Part shown: one piece after another, positions 886 through 15,322 of the stretch
How positions within the stretch are numbered: the stretch's first letter is position 1
How the letters are laid out: the number at the start of each line of letters is the position of its first letter
IMG/VR virus record: IMGVR_UViG_3300025082_000098
Coordinates: 1-20,799 of that record
Length of the DNA stretch: 20,799 nucleotides
Direction: 5' to 3' (one strand)
Origin: a virus
Position numbers and translations under genes: made by a program
Notes under the pieces: generated by a model
The model's database searches: none
Seen by the model: only the letters and a program-made list of their open reading frames with translations
What the model was told of the DNA's origin: nothing

Positions 886-2469
886 TTATAATTCCGCACT
901 TGCCGCTAGTTTATATGAAGCATCATTACATCTTACTCTTGCTGATGCACCAGCTGACCCAACATAATTTTCTGCACCAGAAGTAAAAATTGCTATGTTA
1001 TTATAACCAGCTTTTCCAACTCCATTAAATCCATCAAATGTATCTTGCGCTCCATTTCTTAAAGCTAATAAATAATCTGTTCCTGTTGTTTGAACTATGC
1101 TTGGAATAGACCTCATTGTAGTTGGTAAATCTTTCATGCAAAAAAGTTGACCACCATCATAGTCTGTGCAATTTGCTAAATCTAATACATCAGAATACGC
1201 TTGTGTTCCACTTCGAGAATAAATTTGATGATAATATCTTTGGCATCTTCCTAAATTCACACCAACAGGCAAGAACTCAAAATCAGATGATGTTCCTACT
1301 TCTAATTGTATTCCTGTTATATAAACTTCATCATCAGTAGAACCACCAAGTCCAGCAAGATTACCACTTGACCAATAACCAACGGCAGAATTTTGCCAAG
1401 TATTAGTTACACCTGATCCATTAGGTGTACCAAAATATAATTTAACTGAAAATTCCTCTGTATTTGTATTTTTAATTATTCTAGAAGTATCGCCTGGAAA
1501 TGTTATTGTTTTCTTTTCCCAAGTATCAGCACTGCTTACAGTATAATCAAAAGATGCTATTCTTTCTTGGTCTGAATTAGCATTAAATAAAATTGCACTA
1601 TAGGTTCCTGTTTCATTAGTTTTAATCCAAAAACTTAAACTTAAACTTTCAGCAGATGCTGTTCCAAATTTTAAATGCTGTAACATTTGACCTTCAAATT
1701 TCTGCATTAAAGCTATCTCATCACCATTTGAACTTCCAGCAGATGTACAATCTAACTTCATTGAATAATAAAATCCTTGTCCACTAGGTACATCAGTTGA
1801 TTGTGAGATAGTCCAAGTACCAGTATCGGTTTGAGTTTTCCATCTATCACAAGCATAATAGCCGTCACTTGTTGTAATAGAAGCAGTTGAAGTTGCTCTT
1901 TGAGCAACAGCCATATCTCCATTAATTAAAATATTTTTATAATTTTTATCTCCACCACCAGCAGCAAAAGCTGGTGGTTGACCAGCACCAGCAGAAGTTA
2001 AAACTTGTCCGTCTGTTCCTGTTGCAATAGCAACGGGGTCGCCACTTGCATCATAACTAATTATATTTCCATCTGTACCACCCGCCATCTTTGCTAAACT
2101 TACAGCGTTATCAGCAATTTCTTCTGTATCTACTGCGTTATCTGCAAGATGTATATTATCAATTGAACCATCAACATATTGATCGCTGTCTACTGAATCT
2201 GCGCCAAGAGATACAGTTGAATCCAACCAGTTAACTGTATTTGCTGAATAGTTAAAGGTGCAAAGTGAAATCCAATCTGAACCGTCATAAAATTTTAAAG
2301 TTGGTGTTGTTGCTGAAGTTGTGTCTAACCATAAACTTCCAGCCGCCTTACTTCCAGGTGCAGAAGAAGCTGAACTTAAAGTGTTCAAAGCATTTAAGCT
2401 ATTGTTCATAGCTGTACGGAATGCCGAGAAGCCCTGATTATCTACTGTAATTTGTGAAACTGATGCCAT
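886..2469 (-). CDS. Tail fibre / receptor-binding protein with sugar-binding-like domain
   Basis: This 527-residue protein has the modular build of a marine phage fibre. Residues 1-70 include GSLWLDTTSATTPTLKFYDG, a strand-rich module often near fibre bases. Residues 85-130 carry repeated strands with the motif ADNAV twice (109-113 and 119-123), as in trimeric beta-helical shafts. A Gly/Ala-rich hinge (about 158-174) follows. From about 178 to 405, starting NILINGDMAVAQRA and ending near YITGIQLEVG, is a jelly-roll that resembles carbohydrate-binding (CBM4/9-like) modules found at fibre tips. The last 120 residues, opening with CQRYYHQ, form a further terminal domain that may be the receptor-binding tip. 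A GGA-containing ribosome site lies about 11 bases upstream. Position after the gpJ-like hub fits a side or central fibre. The receptor is unknown. Confidence 0.87.
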   Translation of the reverse strand: MASVSQITVDNQGFSAFRTAMNNSLNALNTLSSASSAPGSKAAGSLWLDTTSATTPTLKFYDGSDWISLCTFNYSANTVNWLDSTVSLGADSVDSDQYVDGSIDNIHLADNAVDTEEIADNAVSLAKMAGGTDGNIISYDASGDPVAIATGTDGQVLTSAGAGQPPAFAAGGGDKNYKNILINGDMAVAQRATSTASITTSDGYYACDRWKTQTDTGTWTISQSTDVPSGQGFYYSMKLDCTSAGSSNGDEIALMQKFEGQMLQHLKFGTASAESLSLSFWIKTNETGTYSAILFNANSDQERIASFDYTVSSADTWEKKTITFPGDTSRIIKNTNTEEFSVKLYFGTPNGSGVTNTWQNSAVGYWSSGNLAGLGGSTDDEVYITGIQLEVGTSSDFEFLPVGVNLGRCQRYYHQIYSRSGTQAYSDVLDLANCTDYDGGQLFCMKDLPTTMRSIPSIVQTTGTDYLLALRNGAQDTFDGFNGVGKAGYNNIAIFTSGAENYVGSAGASARVRCNDASYKLAASAEL

Positions 2470-2508
2470 AATTTTTATTTATCCTATTTTGTTGTTTAAT
2501 GCAAACTC

Positions 2509-5500
2509 TTAAGGTGATAATCCATACCCCTCTGCCACGTAATCAAATGTTCTATCTTGGGCTACAGCAGAATTATTATAAAAAGTTATTGAGAAACCAG
2601 TAGCACTTTTTGATGTGATTGTATAGTAGTCTCCCGTTGCCATATTTTGTGCCGCAATTCCCAAGCTAGGTGTTGTAAAAAATGCGTTGCTAAATGTAAT
2701 TACTTTTGTTGTTGCTCCACTTGCAATATCGTTGCCTTTTGCATTTCTGTTTTCCATAGCCAATTTAATTACTAATTGAGTTATATTACTGCTTGTTTTA
2801 TTATCATCATTGGTTAATCGCAATCTAAATTTGGCATATCTAAAGGCATAAGTAGCTGACGAAGAAATATCATTATAAACAGTTGCCGCACCCAAACTCG
2901 CTGTACTTGTAGCCATTTGTAATTTATGAAAAGCGTGAGAAGGTTCACTTCCATCAAATGGTGCTTTTGCATCATCAAAATATAAATTTCCTCTACCACT
3001 ATCAAAAAGATCATACGGATTTTGATTATCTAAAGTTAAAGTTGGTTTAACTGTTCCATCATAAGTAGCCGATAATGAGATAGAATTAATAAAATTATAA
3101 TATCCAAGACTATCTCTATTAGCTAAATAATAAGTTGGATTTGAAGTTGCATCAGTACCCCCAAGTTCAAAATCTCCACTAGGAGTATCAAAGTTTCCAA
3201 CTGTATCTTCAAAATTAGTAATAGTATCTAAAGATAAAACAGTATCTCCACTCACATCTTCTTTTACACATAAAGGATAAGTCGCATCCATTTGTGCTGG
3301 GCTTAAAAATAAATTTGGATTTTCTGTTGTTGTAGAAATATCAGTATAAGCAAAAATATTTGAAACATTGGTGTAAATAATAGATTCCGAAATTGATTCA
3401 TTGCCAGTTTTGTCGATTGCTTTTATGAGGAAAGCACCAACTCTACTATTCACTAAAGCATTATCTGATTTTCTTCTTGTTACCCTGATTAAATTCGTGC
3501 TGTTGTTCCATAATGCACCACTCGTTACATTTTGGTATCTTATTTCATAGTAAGCAATATCTAAATCTGTTGAGGCACTAGGTGGTGTCCAAGTCAATCT
3601 CATTTGATTACTTCCGTGCATTTCTATTGCAAAATCATCAACATTACTTGGTGGATCACTTCCACCTACTATTGTTCTGTTTTCAGAAGTATAAGTTGAG
3701 GAAACTCCCAATGAGGAAATCGCCTTACATCTTACATTATAAATTTTTCCATCAACCACATTTAACATTTCATGGTTTAATTGAGTTCCTTTTGCTATAA
3801 TTTTATAATCTGATTCTGTGCTTTGTTTAGCTTCCACTTGATAATATTGAACAAATTTATCTGTACTTGCACCCACTAAAATATTAAGTCGAGTCAGCAC
3901 AACACCATCTGAATATTCTATTAGTTCATCACTCAATGTTAAACTTGCTGGTGCAGTTACAGAATAAGGATCTGGTAATGTAGTATCAGGTATTGTAACG
4001 GGTGCATTTTTATCATTAAATGTGTAAAAATTATCTTGGTGTTCAAATAATTGCACATTTACAGTTAAATCTTCATTGATCTCTAACCCCAAAACACGAA
4101 AAGGTTTAGCACTAAAACCACCACTTGCGTAGGTTAATGCAACTATGTCACCAATTTCTAATTCTAAAAATTCTGATGTTAAAGTTAATTGTATTTGTAA
4201 TTGGTTTCTTGATCTTCTTAAAATAATTTCGCAAAGTGCTTCCGCATTATAAGCATTAGTAACATTTGGAAATTGAAAATTACCCTCTAACAAAGTATTA
4301 TTATCTACAGACAACATTGTAGCGTGTTGAAAATCACTAGCAACTCCACTGTCATCAATAGGCGGAAAACATACAGTATCATTTTGCCATTTCTTATATG
4401 GGTTACAATAGGTTCCGATAACACGATTGTATTTAGTATTTTTTCTTTCTCCTACAACTTTTGCACCACCTACAACATGATCTTTGGTAATTGTTTTAAC
4501 AGATGAACCTGTTCCCTCAATTTTTAATTTATAAACTCCATTGTTATAAGTAAATAAAGACCTCATAGGATTGAGAAGTTTTTTTACATTTTCAATAACC
4601 TTTTGACTTGTATCTATAACAGCATTGGATTCAAATTTTATAATAGCTGGAACTGTATCTGTAATTTGTGTTCCATTATCAAATTTTGCAGATAAAGTTG
4701 TACTATAAGTTCCGCCAGTTATTTTCCATGAAAAAGTTAAAACAGAATCCGTTGGTGCGTTTCCATATAAAATAATAATTGGATAGACCTGACCACTTGT
4801 TAAACTTTTTGTACCCTCTCTGGTTTGTTCTCCATGCCACCCACTATTATTTACAATTAATTTGCTATCTTTATTTCCTTGTATTTCTATAAATAAATTA
4901 TTTACTGTTTGACCAGCATCACCAACATAAACTCTTGAACTATCATCTGAAGTTGTTTTAAAATAATATGTATTTGTACTTGCTGGTGTAAAATAACCAA
5001 AATATCTCCTAGAGTTATTGGGATCTGTTGATACTGAACTTATACTTGTAACTGTGCCTGTTGATGATGGATATTTATTTATAAAATAATTTGGATCATC
5101 ATTATAATAACCTGAATAAAATTCATGGATTAATCCAGGTACAGAAGATGTGCTAACAGTTCTTGGAACTATTAATGTATCGGCATCATTAGCGGCAGTT
5201 TGAAAAGAAGTAAAATTTGTTTCAAAGGCACTATTTGGTAATCCTTTTCCATATCTGGAATTTCTTAAATAATCCAGTAATACTAAAGCAGAGTTCGGTG
5301 TGTATCTTGTTGTTGTATCTCTTGGGTCATAAACTTTTTTTCCTTTTAATGTAACTTTAATTTGTGGAATTGAACTGAAAATATCTTGATGCCATTTAAA
5401 CCTAAAAGATAAATAACAGATTCCTGACAATTTATGTGCCGCAGTCCAATTAGATGATGCTGATAAAATTGAAGATACACTTTGTCCATCTGTTCCATAA

Positions 5501-11117: not shown

Positions 11118-11429
11118 TTAATTTGCTTTTTTTATACATTTTGTTAATAATCTAAATAGTAATGGATTGGCCATGAATATTTTTTCGTAACCATTGCCTA
11201 CTGCAAATGCAATAGGTTCTTCGCCTTTCTCATTCACATTTATATTTTCCATATTCATTATTATATGAAATAACTCATGGAATAAAGTATTAAATAACCT
11301 TAAACCTTTCAACCTTTTATCTATCTGTAATGTATGGAGATTTGGATCATATAATCCAAAACAGTCTTGAAGTAAAACATATTGAATTTTAATTTTTCTT
11401 TTACCATACTTGATAAAAGACAAGTTCAT
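11118..11429 (-). CDS. Small zinc metallopeptidase-like protein (HExxH)
   Basis: The 103-residue protein contains TLFHELFHIIMN with His51, Glu52 and His55 of a zincin HExxH motif, followed by EEPIAFAVGNGYEKIF in which Glu70 or Glu71 could be the third zinc ligand. This layout (short beta-strand region, HExxH helix, then 'E...A.A.....') resembles small ImmA/IrrE- or SprT-like metallopeptidases. The gene lies between the capsid and connector genes and overlaps a small membrane protein gene by TAATG. Prohead maturation is already served by the protease fused to the capsid protein, so this enzyme may process another head or connector protein, or act on a host protein. Substrate cannot be told from sequence. 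Confidence 0.72.
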   Translation of the reverse strand: MNLSFIKYGKRKIKIQYVLLQDCFGLYDPNLHTLQIDKRLKGLRLFNTLFHELFHIIMNMENINVNEKGEEPIAFAVGNGYEKIFMANPLLFRLLTKCIKKAN

Positions 11430-11811: not shown

Positions 11812-11830
11812 AATGCGTTAATTACGCATT
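11812..11830. other. Small hairpin over the capsid stop codon
   Basis: AATGCGT-TAATT-ACGCATT: a 7-bp perfect stem with a 5-base loop that spans the capsid stop codon, just ahead of the terminator stem. It has only three GC pairs and no T-run of its own. It may protect the 3' end of capsid mRNA, or be chance. Confidence 0.5.
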
Positions 11831-13822
11831 ATTATCTTGAATTGCCGCAAAACTTTCTGCGTGTCTAACAGCAACATCAACATCGTATAGCCCTATAATT
11901 CTAGTACCACCTTTAGCGGCATTAGTATAAGGATCAACAGATATATCTAAACTACCCCATTCTCCAACAATCAGGTCATTAAAATTCCCGAAAGTTAAAG
12001 CAGAGCAATCTCCACTTGATGACCCTTTTGTAAGAGTATCAGGTGAGTTTGTTGTTGAAAAGACATTGTAACCCAGTAGCTTGTTTTGATCGTTCATGAT
12101 CATGACAGAGTCAGAAGAACCGACTTTAGCCGTAGCCATTAAACGAGAAACTGCAAGAGGAGAAGTAATCCAAGCCAACGCACCTATATCTGCGTTGTCA
12201 GTAGCAACTTCTTTCCAAGTTTCAACAGCCAGCGCCCATGTAAACGCACCACCATTCGTTCCGATAGCAACAGAACCAATACCTGAAGTATTTAAAATAC
12301 CAGTTGGTTTGTTACTAGAACCTGAACCTTGAATGGCTTGTTTATCAACTTCATTAGAAAGTGTTTTTAAAATATCATTTCTAACAATAGTTTCGATTGC
12401 TGGAGTAGATTGGTGCATTAAGTGTCTTGATATGTCAGTAAATGTTCCCAAAGTTTTTGGAGCCATTGTAACTTGACGATATGTCGTGTTGACTTCTGTT
12501 ACTGCTGAATTTTCTCCAACCCATGATGCAGAATTAACTGCAAGTTGAGCTGGGATAGCAATATCGCCAACTAGACCACTTAAAAATAAAGCACCAGCTT
12601 GTTTCACAACCATTCTTGCTCTTAATGCTTCAATAAACGAACCACTTAAAAGATTAGTTGCTACCAAGTGTCCACCATCTGCGCCCACTCCTTGAATAAG
12701 ATCCCTGGTCCAACGAACGTCTGTTGGAACATAGACACCTTTAGGAGTTTTGCCAGTTTTACGAGAGATTTCATCAGACGCTTCTTTTTCAAGTTCAGCA
12801 CCAGACCAGTTCCCAGTTGTCATTGCTTTAATAGCTTTGACAAGAGAATAGACTCGTGATTCCTTGTTAGAAAGTCCAATGTTGTCTTTCTTGTCCAAAG
12901 GTTTTGCTTCCCCTAGTTTGTTTAAAACAATTCCTCTAAATTGAGCAAGAGAAACATTATCGTTAACTGCTTTATCTGCAAGGTCTTTACAATTATGTCT
13001 TGACCCTAAAGATTGAATTTCCTTAACTCTAGCTGTTTCTTCTTTTCTCGCTTTAGCGATTTGTTCTTCAACATTAACTTGAGGTTGCTCCACTTTTGGA
13101 TTTTCTTTTGCTTTTTCCATTGTGTTTTCCTTAGTTATGATCTCAATAGTTTCTTTACAACTATCTTGATCGGTTAAAGTATCATACCTACTGCGTCCTA
13201 CGCCAACAGTTGAGTCTGCTGGTATGGAAACAATAGACGCTTCCAATGGTTTCCAATTAACACGATAAGTTGGATTTTCCTCGTCCTTATTATCGCTTTT
13301 AATCTTATCCATCTTCATTATTTCGTAGCCCACACTCACATTACTGCGAATGCCATCTACGACATCATGAAAAACCTCATCAGCTAGTTTTGATTTACCA
13401 AATCTAACGACTGCACGACCTACCTTGTCTGCATCGCTGATTTTAGCTTCTTCAATGACTCCTATTTGCTTTTCTAAATCGTGGTTAAGCAATAATGGCG
13501 CTCTACCACTAGCAATGAATGAAAAGTCAACATCTTTTGGATTATGACTTAAAATTTCTGTTCCAAAACTTCTTTCGTATGGTTCTTCAGAAGAAAAAGC
13601 TAGATCAACAGTTCTGTTATTTTCGCTTACTTCTTTTTTATTAAAACCAAATACACGATATAGTTTTTCTTTATCTGATTTTTGTGTTGTCATTTTATTT
13701 TCTTTTTGGAAAGTATCGTTGGTTTCTTTTTGTTCTGATACCACTTCCTTTTCGTTGCTATTAGATACTTGCCCGTTCCCTTTTTCGTCAATGTCATTGT
13801 TTATTTTATATTTTGTTTCCAT
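11822..13822 (-). CDS. Prohead protease / major capsid protein fusion (HK97 type)
   Basis: One 666-residue frame joins two functions. Residues about 53-210 are a U35/S78-type prohead protease: RVFGFNKKE, then RSFGTEIL, RAPLLLNHD with His114 as probable catalytic residue, and GIRSNVSVGYEI with Ser163. Residues about 235-330 are charged and helical, like a delta scaffolding region. From about 375 to the end is an HK97-fold capsid domain: GGHLVATNLLSGSFIEALR, IAIPAQLA, ASWVGENSA, TFTDISRHLM, NEVDKQAIQGSGSSNKPTGI, AWITSPLA and a final GGTRIIGLYDVDVAVRH. The first ATG lacks a clear Shine-Dalgarno; Met44 (13693) is another possible start. An AAGGA precedes an in-frame ATG at Met235. Self-cleavage should free the capsid subunit. 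The gene follows the portal by 12 bases and ends before a strong terminator. Confidence 0.92.
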   Translation of the reverse strand: METKYKINNDIDEKGNGQVSNSNEKEVVSEQKETNDTFQKENKMTTQKSDKEKLYRVFGFNKKEVSENNRTVDLAFSSEEPYERSFGTEILSHNPKDVDFSFIASGRAPLLLNHDLEKQIGVIEEAKISDADKVGRAVVRFGKSKLADEVFHDVVDGIRSNVSVGYEIMKMDKIKSDNKDEENPTYRVNWKPLEASIVSIPADSTVGVGRSRYDTLTDQDSCKETIEIITKENTMEKAKENPKVEQPQVNVEEQIAKARKEETARVKEIQSLGSRHNCKDLADKAVNDNVSLAQFRGIVLNKLGEAKPLDKKDNIGLSNKESRVYSLVKAIKAMTTGNWSGAELEKEASDEISRKTGKTPKGVYVPTDVRWTRDLIQGVGADGGHLVATNLLSGSFIEALRARMVVKQAGALFLSGLVGDIAIPAQLAVNSASWVGENSAVTEVNTTYRQVTMAPKTLGTFTDISRHLMHQSTPAIETIVRNDILKTLSNEVDKQAIQGSGSSNKPTGILNTSGIGSVAIGTNGGAFTWALAVETWKEVATDNADIGALAWITSPLAVSRLMATAKVGSSDSVMIMNDQNKLLGYNVFSTTNSPDTLTKGSSSGDCSALTFGNFNDLIVGEWGSLDISVDPYTNAAKGGTRIIGLYDVDVAVRHAESFAAIQDNNA
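13118..13132 (-). promoter_or_regulatory. Internal ribosome site and ATG inside protease-capsid fusion
   Basis: On the minus strand AAGGA (13132-13128) lies seven bases before an in-frame ATG (13120-13118, Met235, MEKAKENPKVEQ). Initiation here would yield a 432-residue protein with the scaffold-like helix and whole capsid domain but without the protease. The Shine-Dalgarno is clearly better than that of the first ATG of the gene. Confidence 0.55.
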
Positions 13823-13834
13823 AATTAATATCTA

Positions 13835-15322
13835 TTATTTTTCTTCTTCTTCTTCAACCTCATTAGGTTCATTTTGTTGTATTTGTTTTGAACCAAAAGG
13901 TTCGAAAGCTAACTGTATTCCAAATTTTTCTGCTAATTCCTTATCTGATTGTATCTGACTAAATACATCTTCTACATCACGACCATATCCAGCTTGTACG
14001 TCTTGATGTGATAAAAAACCATTTTCTACACCAACTTTTAATGCTTCAACTTCTTTTTTAGGATCAATCCATTGCCAACCTCTTGCTCTCCAGATAGGTT
14101 GATTAAATTTAGGAAATTTTGATGTTGGAAGTCCATTTAATAGGTCTGTTAACAAAACCATTTCTAACCAATTAGAATAAACAATATCGTGAAAGTTTCT
14201 GATAATTTTATATTGTTCACATTGAAAATAATTGCGCTCCTCTAATGCGCCTTGTCTAATACTTGAATAATTTACACTCTCTAAATCATTTGCAAGTGTA
14301 TTATAACTAACATTTAAACTACTAGCGATTGATCGAATAATTGATTTAGTAAAATCTTTAAATGCTGTCGTTGGGTGTTGAGGATCAAATGTTTGAAAGT
14401 CAGTTCCAGTTGGTAATTGTTCAAATGTTCCAGGTTCTGCATTCATAATCGGATTATTAGTATCTGTTTTATCTTCTCCAGTATAACTATCGGCATCTGC
14501 TGATTTAAAAAATCCCATTTTACTTGCACCTACTCTTGCGGCAACCAGTTCAGCTTCCATATAACCATCTAGCATTTTTAAATCTTTTAAACATGATGAT
14601 AAAGGCGGAACTCCTCTCGTTTGATGTGGTCTTTCTTGATGATAAAAATGAATAATCTCGTTAGCTGGAATAATATTATATTTTGTACCTACATAGGAAC
14701 TTGCACTTAAATTTAGATCATCGTTTGGGTGTCTTTTTAGTAAATGATAATTAATTGGCTTACCAAACTTATCAATTTCAATTCCCATTCTAACTTCATT
14801 ACCATTTGGTAAAACTATATTTAATTCTGTATCTAAAAAATCAGCTTCTATAAATTCAATGGCAAGTCTATATGGATTATCAAAATTTTTTATTATTCTA
14901 ACCAAAACCTCTCCATCTCTTGCAAAAGTTTCAGCAAATAATCGTTGGCAATCAACCCAACTCATTTTACCATCGGCAGTACATTGATGTCCCCATTCTT
15001 TCCAACGTCTTTCAATCATATTATTGGCAAATGAATCTAGTTGACCATTTGGGTCCCTACTTCTTACTTGTAGATGAACTCCTTTTGCACCAATCACATT
15101 ATCTGTATAAACATTGATAAATCTTCTAGCGTAAGCATTATTTCTTGCTAAATCTCTTGACCGATTTCTTAAAACTCTTAAACTTTGTTTTATTTCAGTA
15201 TCAGCAGATTTTGATGTTTGAATAAAGTTACTTAATAATCTATGTGTACCAGCACCAGAATAAAAAGACTTTTTGCTTGTTCTTCCTTTGAAGAAATTTT
15301 TAATCCTCTCAAGATATGTCAT
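13835..15322 (-). CDS. B-like: Portal protein, lambda family
   Basis: The 495-residue protein has the marks of the lambda gpB portal family: RSRDLARNNAYARRFINVYTDNVIGAKG at about 54-81, FAETFARDGEVLVRI at about 128-142, GIEIDKFGKPINYHL, IPANEIIHFYHQERPHQTRGVPPLS at about 228-252, LNVSYNTLANDLESVNYSSIRQG at about 343-365, and a C-terminal WQWIDPKKEVEALKVGVENGFLS. 'R.gQtRGvp' and 'D.ypk.e..A....v.nGl.s' are hallmarks. Twelve copies form the vertex channel through which DNA is pumped by terminase. The end is an acidic EEEEEK tail from a GAA repeat. Its start overlaps the previous gene by 14 bases. No fused protease is present, unlike lambda B/C overlap, because the protease is joined to the capsid instead. 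Confidence 0.93.
   Translation of the reverse strand: MTYLERIKNFFKGRTSKKSFYSGAGTHRLLSNFIQTSKSADTEIKQSLRVLRNRSRDLARNNAYARRFINVYTDNVIGAKGVHLQVRSRDPNGQLDSFANNMIERRWKEWGHQCTADGKMSWVDCQRLFAETFARDGEVLVRIIKNFDNPYRLAIEFIEADFLDTELNIVLPNGNEVRMGIEIDKFGKPINYHLLKRHPNDDLNLSASSYVGTKYNIIPANEIIHFYHQERPHQTRGVPPLSSCLKDLKMLDGYMEAELVAARVGASKMGFFKSADADSYTGEDKTDTNNPIMNAEPGTFEQLPTGTDFQTFDPQHPTTAFKDFTKSIIRSIASSLNVSYNTLANDLESVNYSSIRQGALEERNYFQCEQYKIIRNFHDIVYSNWLEMVLLTDLLNGLPTSKFPKFNQPIWRARGWQWIDPKKEVEALKVGVENGFLSHQDVQAGYGRDVEDVFSQIQSDKELAEKFGIQLAFEPFGSKQIQQNEPNEVEEEEEK

Follow-up and report, generated by a model that had tools for sequence, protein, structure and literature searches.

A conserved candidate start site inside a phage protease-capsid fusion gene and its predicted protease-free capsid product

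The window analysed here, an IMG/VR virus record taken over its whole length of 20,799 bases, contains a 666-aa frame in which a predicted prohead protease is followed by a helical delta (scaffold) domain and a capsid domain, and within that frame an ATG (Met235) that lies between protease and delta domain and is preceded by a Shine-Dalgarno (SD) sequence retained by most relatives of the gene. We propose that this one frame has two starts and gives rise to a 666-aa protease-delta-capsid protein and a 432-aa delta-capsid protein, which would co-assemble with only a minority of the subunits carrying the protease; we assign to this reading a probability of roughly 0.8. The conservation of the site strongly implies that the Met235 start is used.

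The fusion gene and its candidate internal start

Profile searches revealed a siphophage-like cluster of head and tail genes on the minus strand of the window (small and large terminase, a head-tail joining protein, a lambda-type portal, the capsid, a gpFII-type joining protein, the tape measure and a central fibre). A small ORF with a HELFH-type zinc-protease-like motif is found between the capsid and tail genes (11118-11429, minus strand). The features considered below are:

13835..15322, minus strand: lambda-type portal gene, upstream of the fusion (TIGR01539; phrog_21)
11822..13822, minus strand: fusion gene, protease-delta-capsid, 666 aa (open frame; PF05065; phrog_617; NF045541 below cut-off)
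13820..13822, minus strand: Met1, the first ATG, 12 nt past the portal stop codon (no Shine-Dalgarno)
13220..13663, minus strand: predicted prohead protease domain, residues 54-201 (AlphaFold2 model; TIGR01543 E 1.8e-5, below cut-off; relatives above the PF04586 cut-off; invariant columns)
13128..13132, minus strand: candidate internal Shine-Dalgarno AAGGA (spacer of 7 nt to the ATG; core SD word kept there in 63/69 clusters of relatives)
13118..13120, minus strand: candidate internal start codon ATG, Met235 (in frame; junction ATG in 169/169 usable sequences)
11822..13120, minus strand: predicted second product, delta-capsid, 432 aa (open frame; compare stand-alone capsids of 439 aa and 428 aa)
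12755..13072, minus strand: predicted helical delta (scaffold) domain, residues 251-356 (AlphaFold2 model)
12644..12709, minus strand: low-confidence linker, residues 372-393, the probable maturation cleavage region (pLDDT <50; the mature R4C chain starts at residue 383 of our protein)
11828..12637, minus strand: HK97-fold capsid domain, residues 396-665 (PF05065, R4C match, AlphaFold2, Foldseek)

The first-pass annotation had described a single frame spanning protease and capsid as a departure from the usual two-gene arrangement; the 666-aa ORF (13822-11822, minus strand) is indeed there, but such an arrangement is already known (phrog_617, NF045541). The phrog_617 profile matches residues 49-665 nearly from end to end (profile positions 4-625 of 626, E 1.1e-141), and the NF045541 model of protease/capsid fusions scores 160.6 bits, below its curated cut-off of 525. 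The capsid part is recognized confidently by PF05065 (Phage_capsid; residues 383-662, E 2.5e-37, over the cut-off) and TIGR01554 (103 bits vs. a cut-off of 27.5), and the mature capsid chain in the solved R4C structure begins at the position aligned to residue 383. The AlphaFold2 model of the complete protein (mean pLDDT 70.7), for which Foldseek reported R4C, the RcGTA capsid and HK97 as the best matches (8gta among the entries matched), separates the protease from the delta domain by a low-confidence linker (residues 202-246) that contains Met235. The protease part is more divergent from the available profiles (TIGR01543: 24.9 bits, cut-off: 59), and a Pfam domain search of the window protein returned no PF04586 match; the PF04586 (Peptidase_S78) cut-off is nonetheless exceeded by four of the six extended relatives scanned. 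H114 and S163, which we take to be the catalytic His and Ser of an S78 prohead protease, are invariant in two alignments of 23 and 25 sequences. Taken by its profile matches and its model, the 666-aa frame carries an HK97-type capsid behind a delta (scaffold) domain and, nearer the N-terminus, a prohead protease that is S78-like.

The remaining elements described by the first-pass annotation, i.e. an in-frame Met235 with AAGGA seven bases upstream, a first ATG devoid of an evident SD, and products of 666 and 432 residues, all reappeared in our analysis at the same positions and sizes. The predicted SD duplex energies are +0.4 kcal/mol for Met1, -0.9 for Met44 and -6.0 for Met235, the last being the best value that any of the gene's 12 in-frame ATGs attains; of the 24 gene starts predicted for the window, 4 equal or surpass it. 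We also considered the bare count of the motif in the window as evidence and rejected it as not significant: AAGGA-N5-9-ATG occurs 9 times on the coding strand vs. 5.2 expected. In the fusion gene it occurs once, and since 0.45 occurrences in any frame are expected there by chance, the window alone is indecisive. It is only through conservation that the internal SD-ATG exceeds chance.

The size of the predicted 432-aa product can be compared with capsid proteins encoded by genes of their own. In Cellulophaga phage phi39:1 protease and capsid are encoded by two genes, and residue 92 of the 439-aa capsid protein aligns to residue 320 of the window protein, which places its start near residue 229, a few residues from Met235. 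In phiKO2 a separate 428-aa capsid protein, annotated as N-terminally cleaved, has its residue 134 aligned to residue 383. According to these alignments, a product initiated at Met235 would be sized like an ordinary delta-capsid protein. PhiKO2 and PY54 had also been sought out as an independent class of ClpP-type fusions and were rejected as such, the genes being separate in both.

Conservation of the junction ATG and its Shine-Dalgarno among relatives

Relatives of the gene were collected in two scans of viral contigs and supplemented with 26 phage records and the window itself. This gave 184 sequences (183 loci and the window, whose own piece among the loci was omitted), of which 15 were dropped, as they did not span the junction in one frame, leaving 169 usable sequences that do. 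At 75% identity these fall into 69 clusters; two loci (L107 and L108) stem from the same contigs as two others (L058 and L067) and are all kept within the 169. One of the six patterns used in the first scan spanned the junction peptide, which may enrich for near relatives that retain it. The second scan relied on a protease pattern only, and among the clusters represented by loci new in that scan the SD energy at the junction is -5 kcal/mol or better in 38 of 42. A scan of genome contigs yielded a single match (L185), on a contig assigned to an Akkermansiaceae metagenome-assembled genome.

All 169 usable sequences possess an in-frame ATG between the protease and the delta domain. In 57 of the 69 clusters this junction ATG has an SD energy of -5 kcal/mol or better, a level attained by 8.7% of the 1,179 remaining in-frame ATGs of these frames; in 44 clusters it is the strongest ATG of its frame. 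A core SD word is located 3-13 nt before the junction ATG, most commonly at a spacing of 7 nt, in 63 of the 69 clusters, compared with 131 of the 1,179 control ATGs. The clusters share descent, so that p-values such as those reported below overstate their independence, and more trust can be placed in the counts obtained at 40-50% identity; the core SD word is present in 39/42 clusters at 60% identity, 21/23 at 50%, 17/18 at 45% and 8/9 at 40%. The predicted mRNA structure is weaker at the junction ATG than at other ATGs in 64 of the 69 clusters, to which the composition of the linker may contribute.

The first-pass annotation had named fusions lacking an internal SD or ATG as a finding that would refute its proposal; the proposal withstands this check, in that no usable relative lacks the ATG and 63 of the 69 clusters keep a core SD word. 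Five clusters are without a convincing SD (L087 and L097, both from cyanophages, and L093, L094 and L119). In the two cyanophage clusters, which represent S-LBS1 and S-CBS1/3, the junction ATG is kept with no Shine-Dalgarno. Within the window's own cluster, 25 of 40 members have a weak SD (-2.9 to -3.4 kcal/mol), with energies about the median of the window's gene starts.

Some loci have disrupted frames. In L062 the capsid frame opens shortly upstream of the homologous Met. This was considered as a naturally separate capsid gene and rejected as evidence, as the frame changes at a seven-A run (around 1010-1040); another locus from the same metagenome (3300009679), L075, is also frameshifted at a seven-A run (around 3595), so that the break in L062 is likely an error, and both probably arose in sequencing or assembly. 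In L066 the protease is frameshifted around 1846 by a stretch missing in comparison with L075, with the capsid part and the internal ATG remaining open; having lost part of the protease and the frame, this locus was excluded as evidence.

In many relatives the fusion has about 100-400 additional residues at its N-terminus, located after the portal and before the protease; some of these extensions contain DUF5824 or phrog_2859. There are 16 clusters in which the protease behind such an extension begins at a Met near an Arg-His-Ile/Val motif (17 listed matches minus L048, a false pattern match inside the accessory domain), and in 12 of them this Met has an SD energy of -5 kcal/mol or better. This suggests that each domain junction keeps a putative ribosome site of its own. 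Loci with one or more accessory domains before the protease (DUF5824; phrog_2859-like), often with their own junction SD-ATG, include L113, L128, L140 and L177, among others. Roseobacter phage CRP-823 has a pair of overlapping genes in this region (462-1178 and 1138-3390), each annotated as major capsid protein; the upstream gene of the pair looks like an accessory domain.

Selection at the junction and the proposed use of the internal start

Several lines of evidence indicate that selection acts on the nucleotides of the junction and not on the peptide that they encode. Among the 63 clusters with a core SD word, the SD occupies all three codon phases (13, 32 and 18 clusters) and encodes 14 different dipeptides. 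Where the site reads Lys-Glu, the Lys codon is AAG in 27 of 30 cases vs. 63 of 202 Lys codons before Glu elsewhere (p 7e-10). A first run of synonymous shuffles gave a combined p of 1.5e-8, with single clusters rarely significant (12/69 at 0.05); in gene-wide shuffles the junction has a mean mid-p of 0.22 vs. 0.52 for control ATGs (Mann-Whitney p 3.7e-18), and values of 0.1 or below are obtained for 27 of the 69 junctions vs. 8.1% of the control ATGs.

These data bear directly on the most serious competitor of our reading, according to which the SD-ATG is an unused relic of the fusion of two genes and all capsid protein derives from a full-length product that cuts itself. The separate protease and capsid genes in relatives such as phi39:1 and phiKO2 would fit such a history, as would possible cleavage of the linker by the protease and the weak SD of some near relatives. 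Yet the SD is kept between clusters below 40-50% identity despite a changing linker peptide and codon phase, and synonymous codons at the site are under selection, whereas a relic would decay; we therefore regard this explanation as improbable. It counts against the two-start reading that autoproteolysis of the fusion could also release capsid. We attach very little weight to the idea that Lys-Glu-x-x-Met is conserved for the sake of the protein, e.g. as a protease cleavage site, with the SD as a by-product of codons: Lys-Glu does occur there more often than any other dipeptide (22/63 clusters), but the variety of dipeptides and phases, the preference for AAG and an SD energy better than in synonymous shuffles all argue against it.

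In the two-start reading that we prefer, some ribosomes would enter at Met1, probably through coupling with the end of the portal gene, and make the 666-aa protein; others would bind the in-frame AAGGA, start at Met235 and make the 432-aa delta-capsid protein. Both products would co-assemble into the prohead, since the capsid domain is common to both. The 432-aa form would be the main building block, while the 666-aa minority would bring the protease inside the prohead, where it would later remove the delta domains and itself. Judging from the relative strengths of the SD sequences, little fusion and much capsid is a plausible outcome. Across the relatives the upstream start is not consistently the weaker one: of 64 clusters, 48 have a stronger SD at the junction than at the first ATG and 13 a weaker one, but against the best upstream candidate the figures are 38 and 23. 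The proposed ratio, plausible in the window, is thus not a general result. It is hardly likely that the internal start serves mainly coupling or timing instead of stoichiometry, with the fusion possibly the more abundant product, a notion favoured by the good SD candidate at an upstream start in many relatives and opposed by the contrast between Met1 and Met235 in the window.

If our reading is true, it would explain how fusion phages escape having each of their capsid subunits burdened with a protease, and the annotation of fusion genes with a single product would miss the main capsid precursor. It also makes exact and inexpensive predictions, namely initiation at one particular codon that is abolished by silent changes, for which culturable phages such as R4C, RcCronus and Arya, whose sites are strong, and ep3 are suitable.

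Comparison with known systems

The fusions grouped in phrog_617, phrog_4523 and NF045541 (Jilinvirus-type phages) have the same domain order as the window gene, which itself falls far below the NF045541 cut-off, and in phage records the known fusion proteins are mostly annotated as a single gene with one product. Protease-scaffold-capsid fusions have also been described in small actinobacteriophages (clusters EE, AN and others) (PMC7302621); going by that description they follow the same fused logic in actinobacterial hosts, and the portions of that article dealing with them do not mention an internal start. The R4C structure paper reports 415 capsid proteins from this gene; its main text contains neither "protease" nor "cleav", and this silence neither supports nor contradicts an internal start. 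Searches of an open-licence literature collection turned up no protease-capsid fusion for which an internal start is described, from which its absence from print does not follow.

What is already known is thus the fusion itself and, in lambda, nested in-frame starts in protease-scaffold genes: an internal start within gene C yields Nu3, a protease-free scaffold, from inside the protease gene. Lambda differs in that its capsid gene E is separate, whereas the nested product predicted in the window contains the capsid itself. The tripartite capsid gene of Gifsy-2 reportedly combines a ClpP-like protease, a central scaffold-like domain and the capsid in one gene, as opposed to the S78-like protease of the window. 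HK97 possesses an S78-type protease (gp4) and a delta domain fused to the capsid (gp5), encoded by two genes with separate ribosome sites; the window shares with it the predicted delta-capsid arrangement and the HK97 fold (Foldseek), united in one gene with a putative S78-like protease. On balance we lean towards viewing this widespread class of head genes as fused operons that retain a conserved ribosome site at each junction (accessory / protease / delta-capsid) and would produce, from one frame, two or three nested, co-assembling proteins with a common capsid domain. Internal initiation, in place of frameshifting, would then set how much protease enters each capsid, a translational counterpart of Gag/Gag-Pol.
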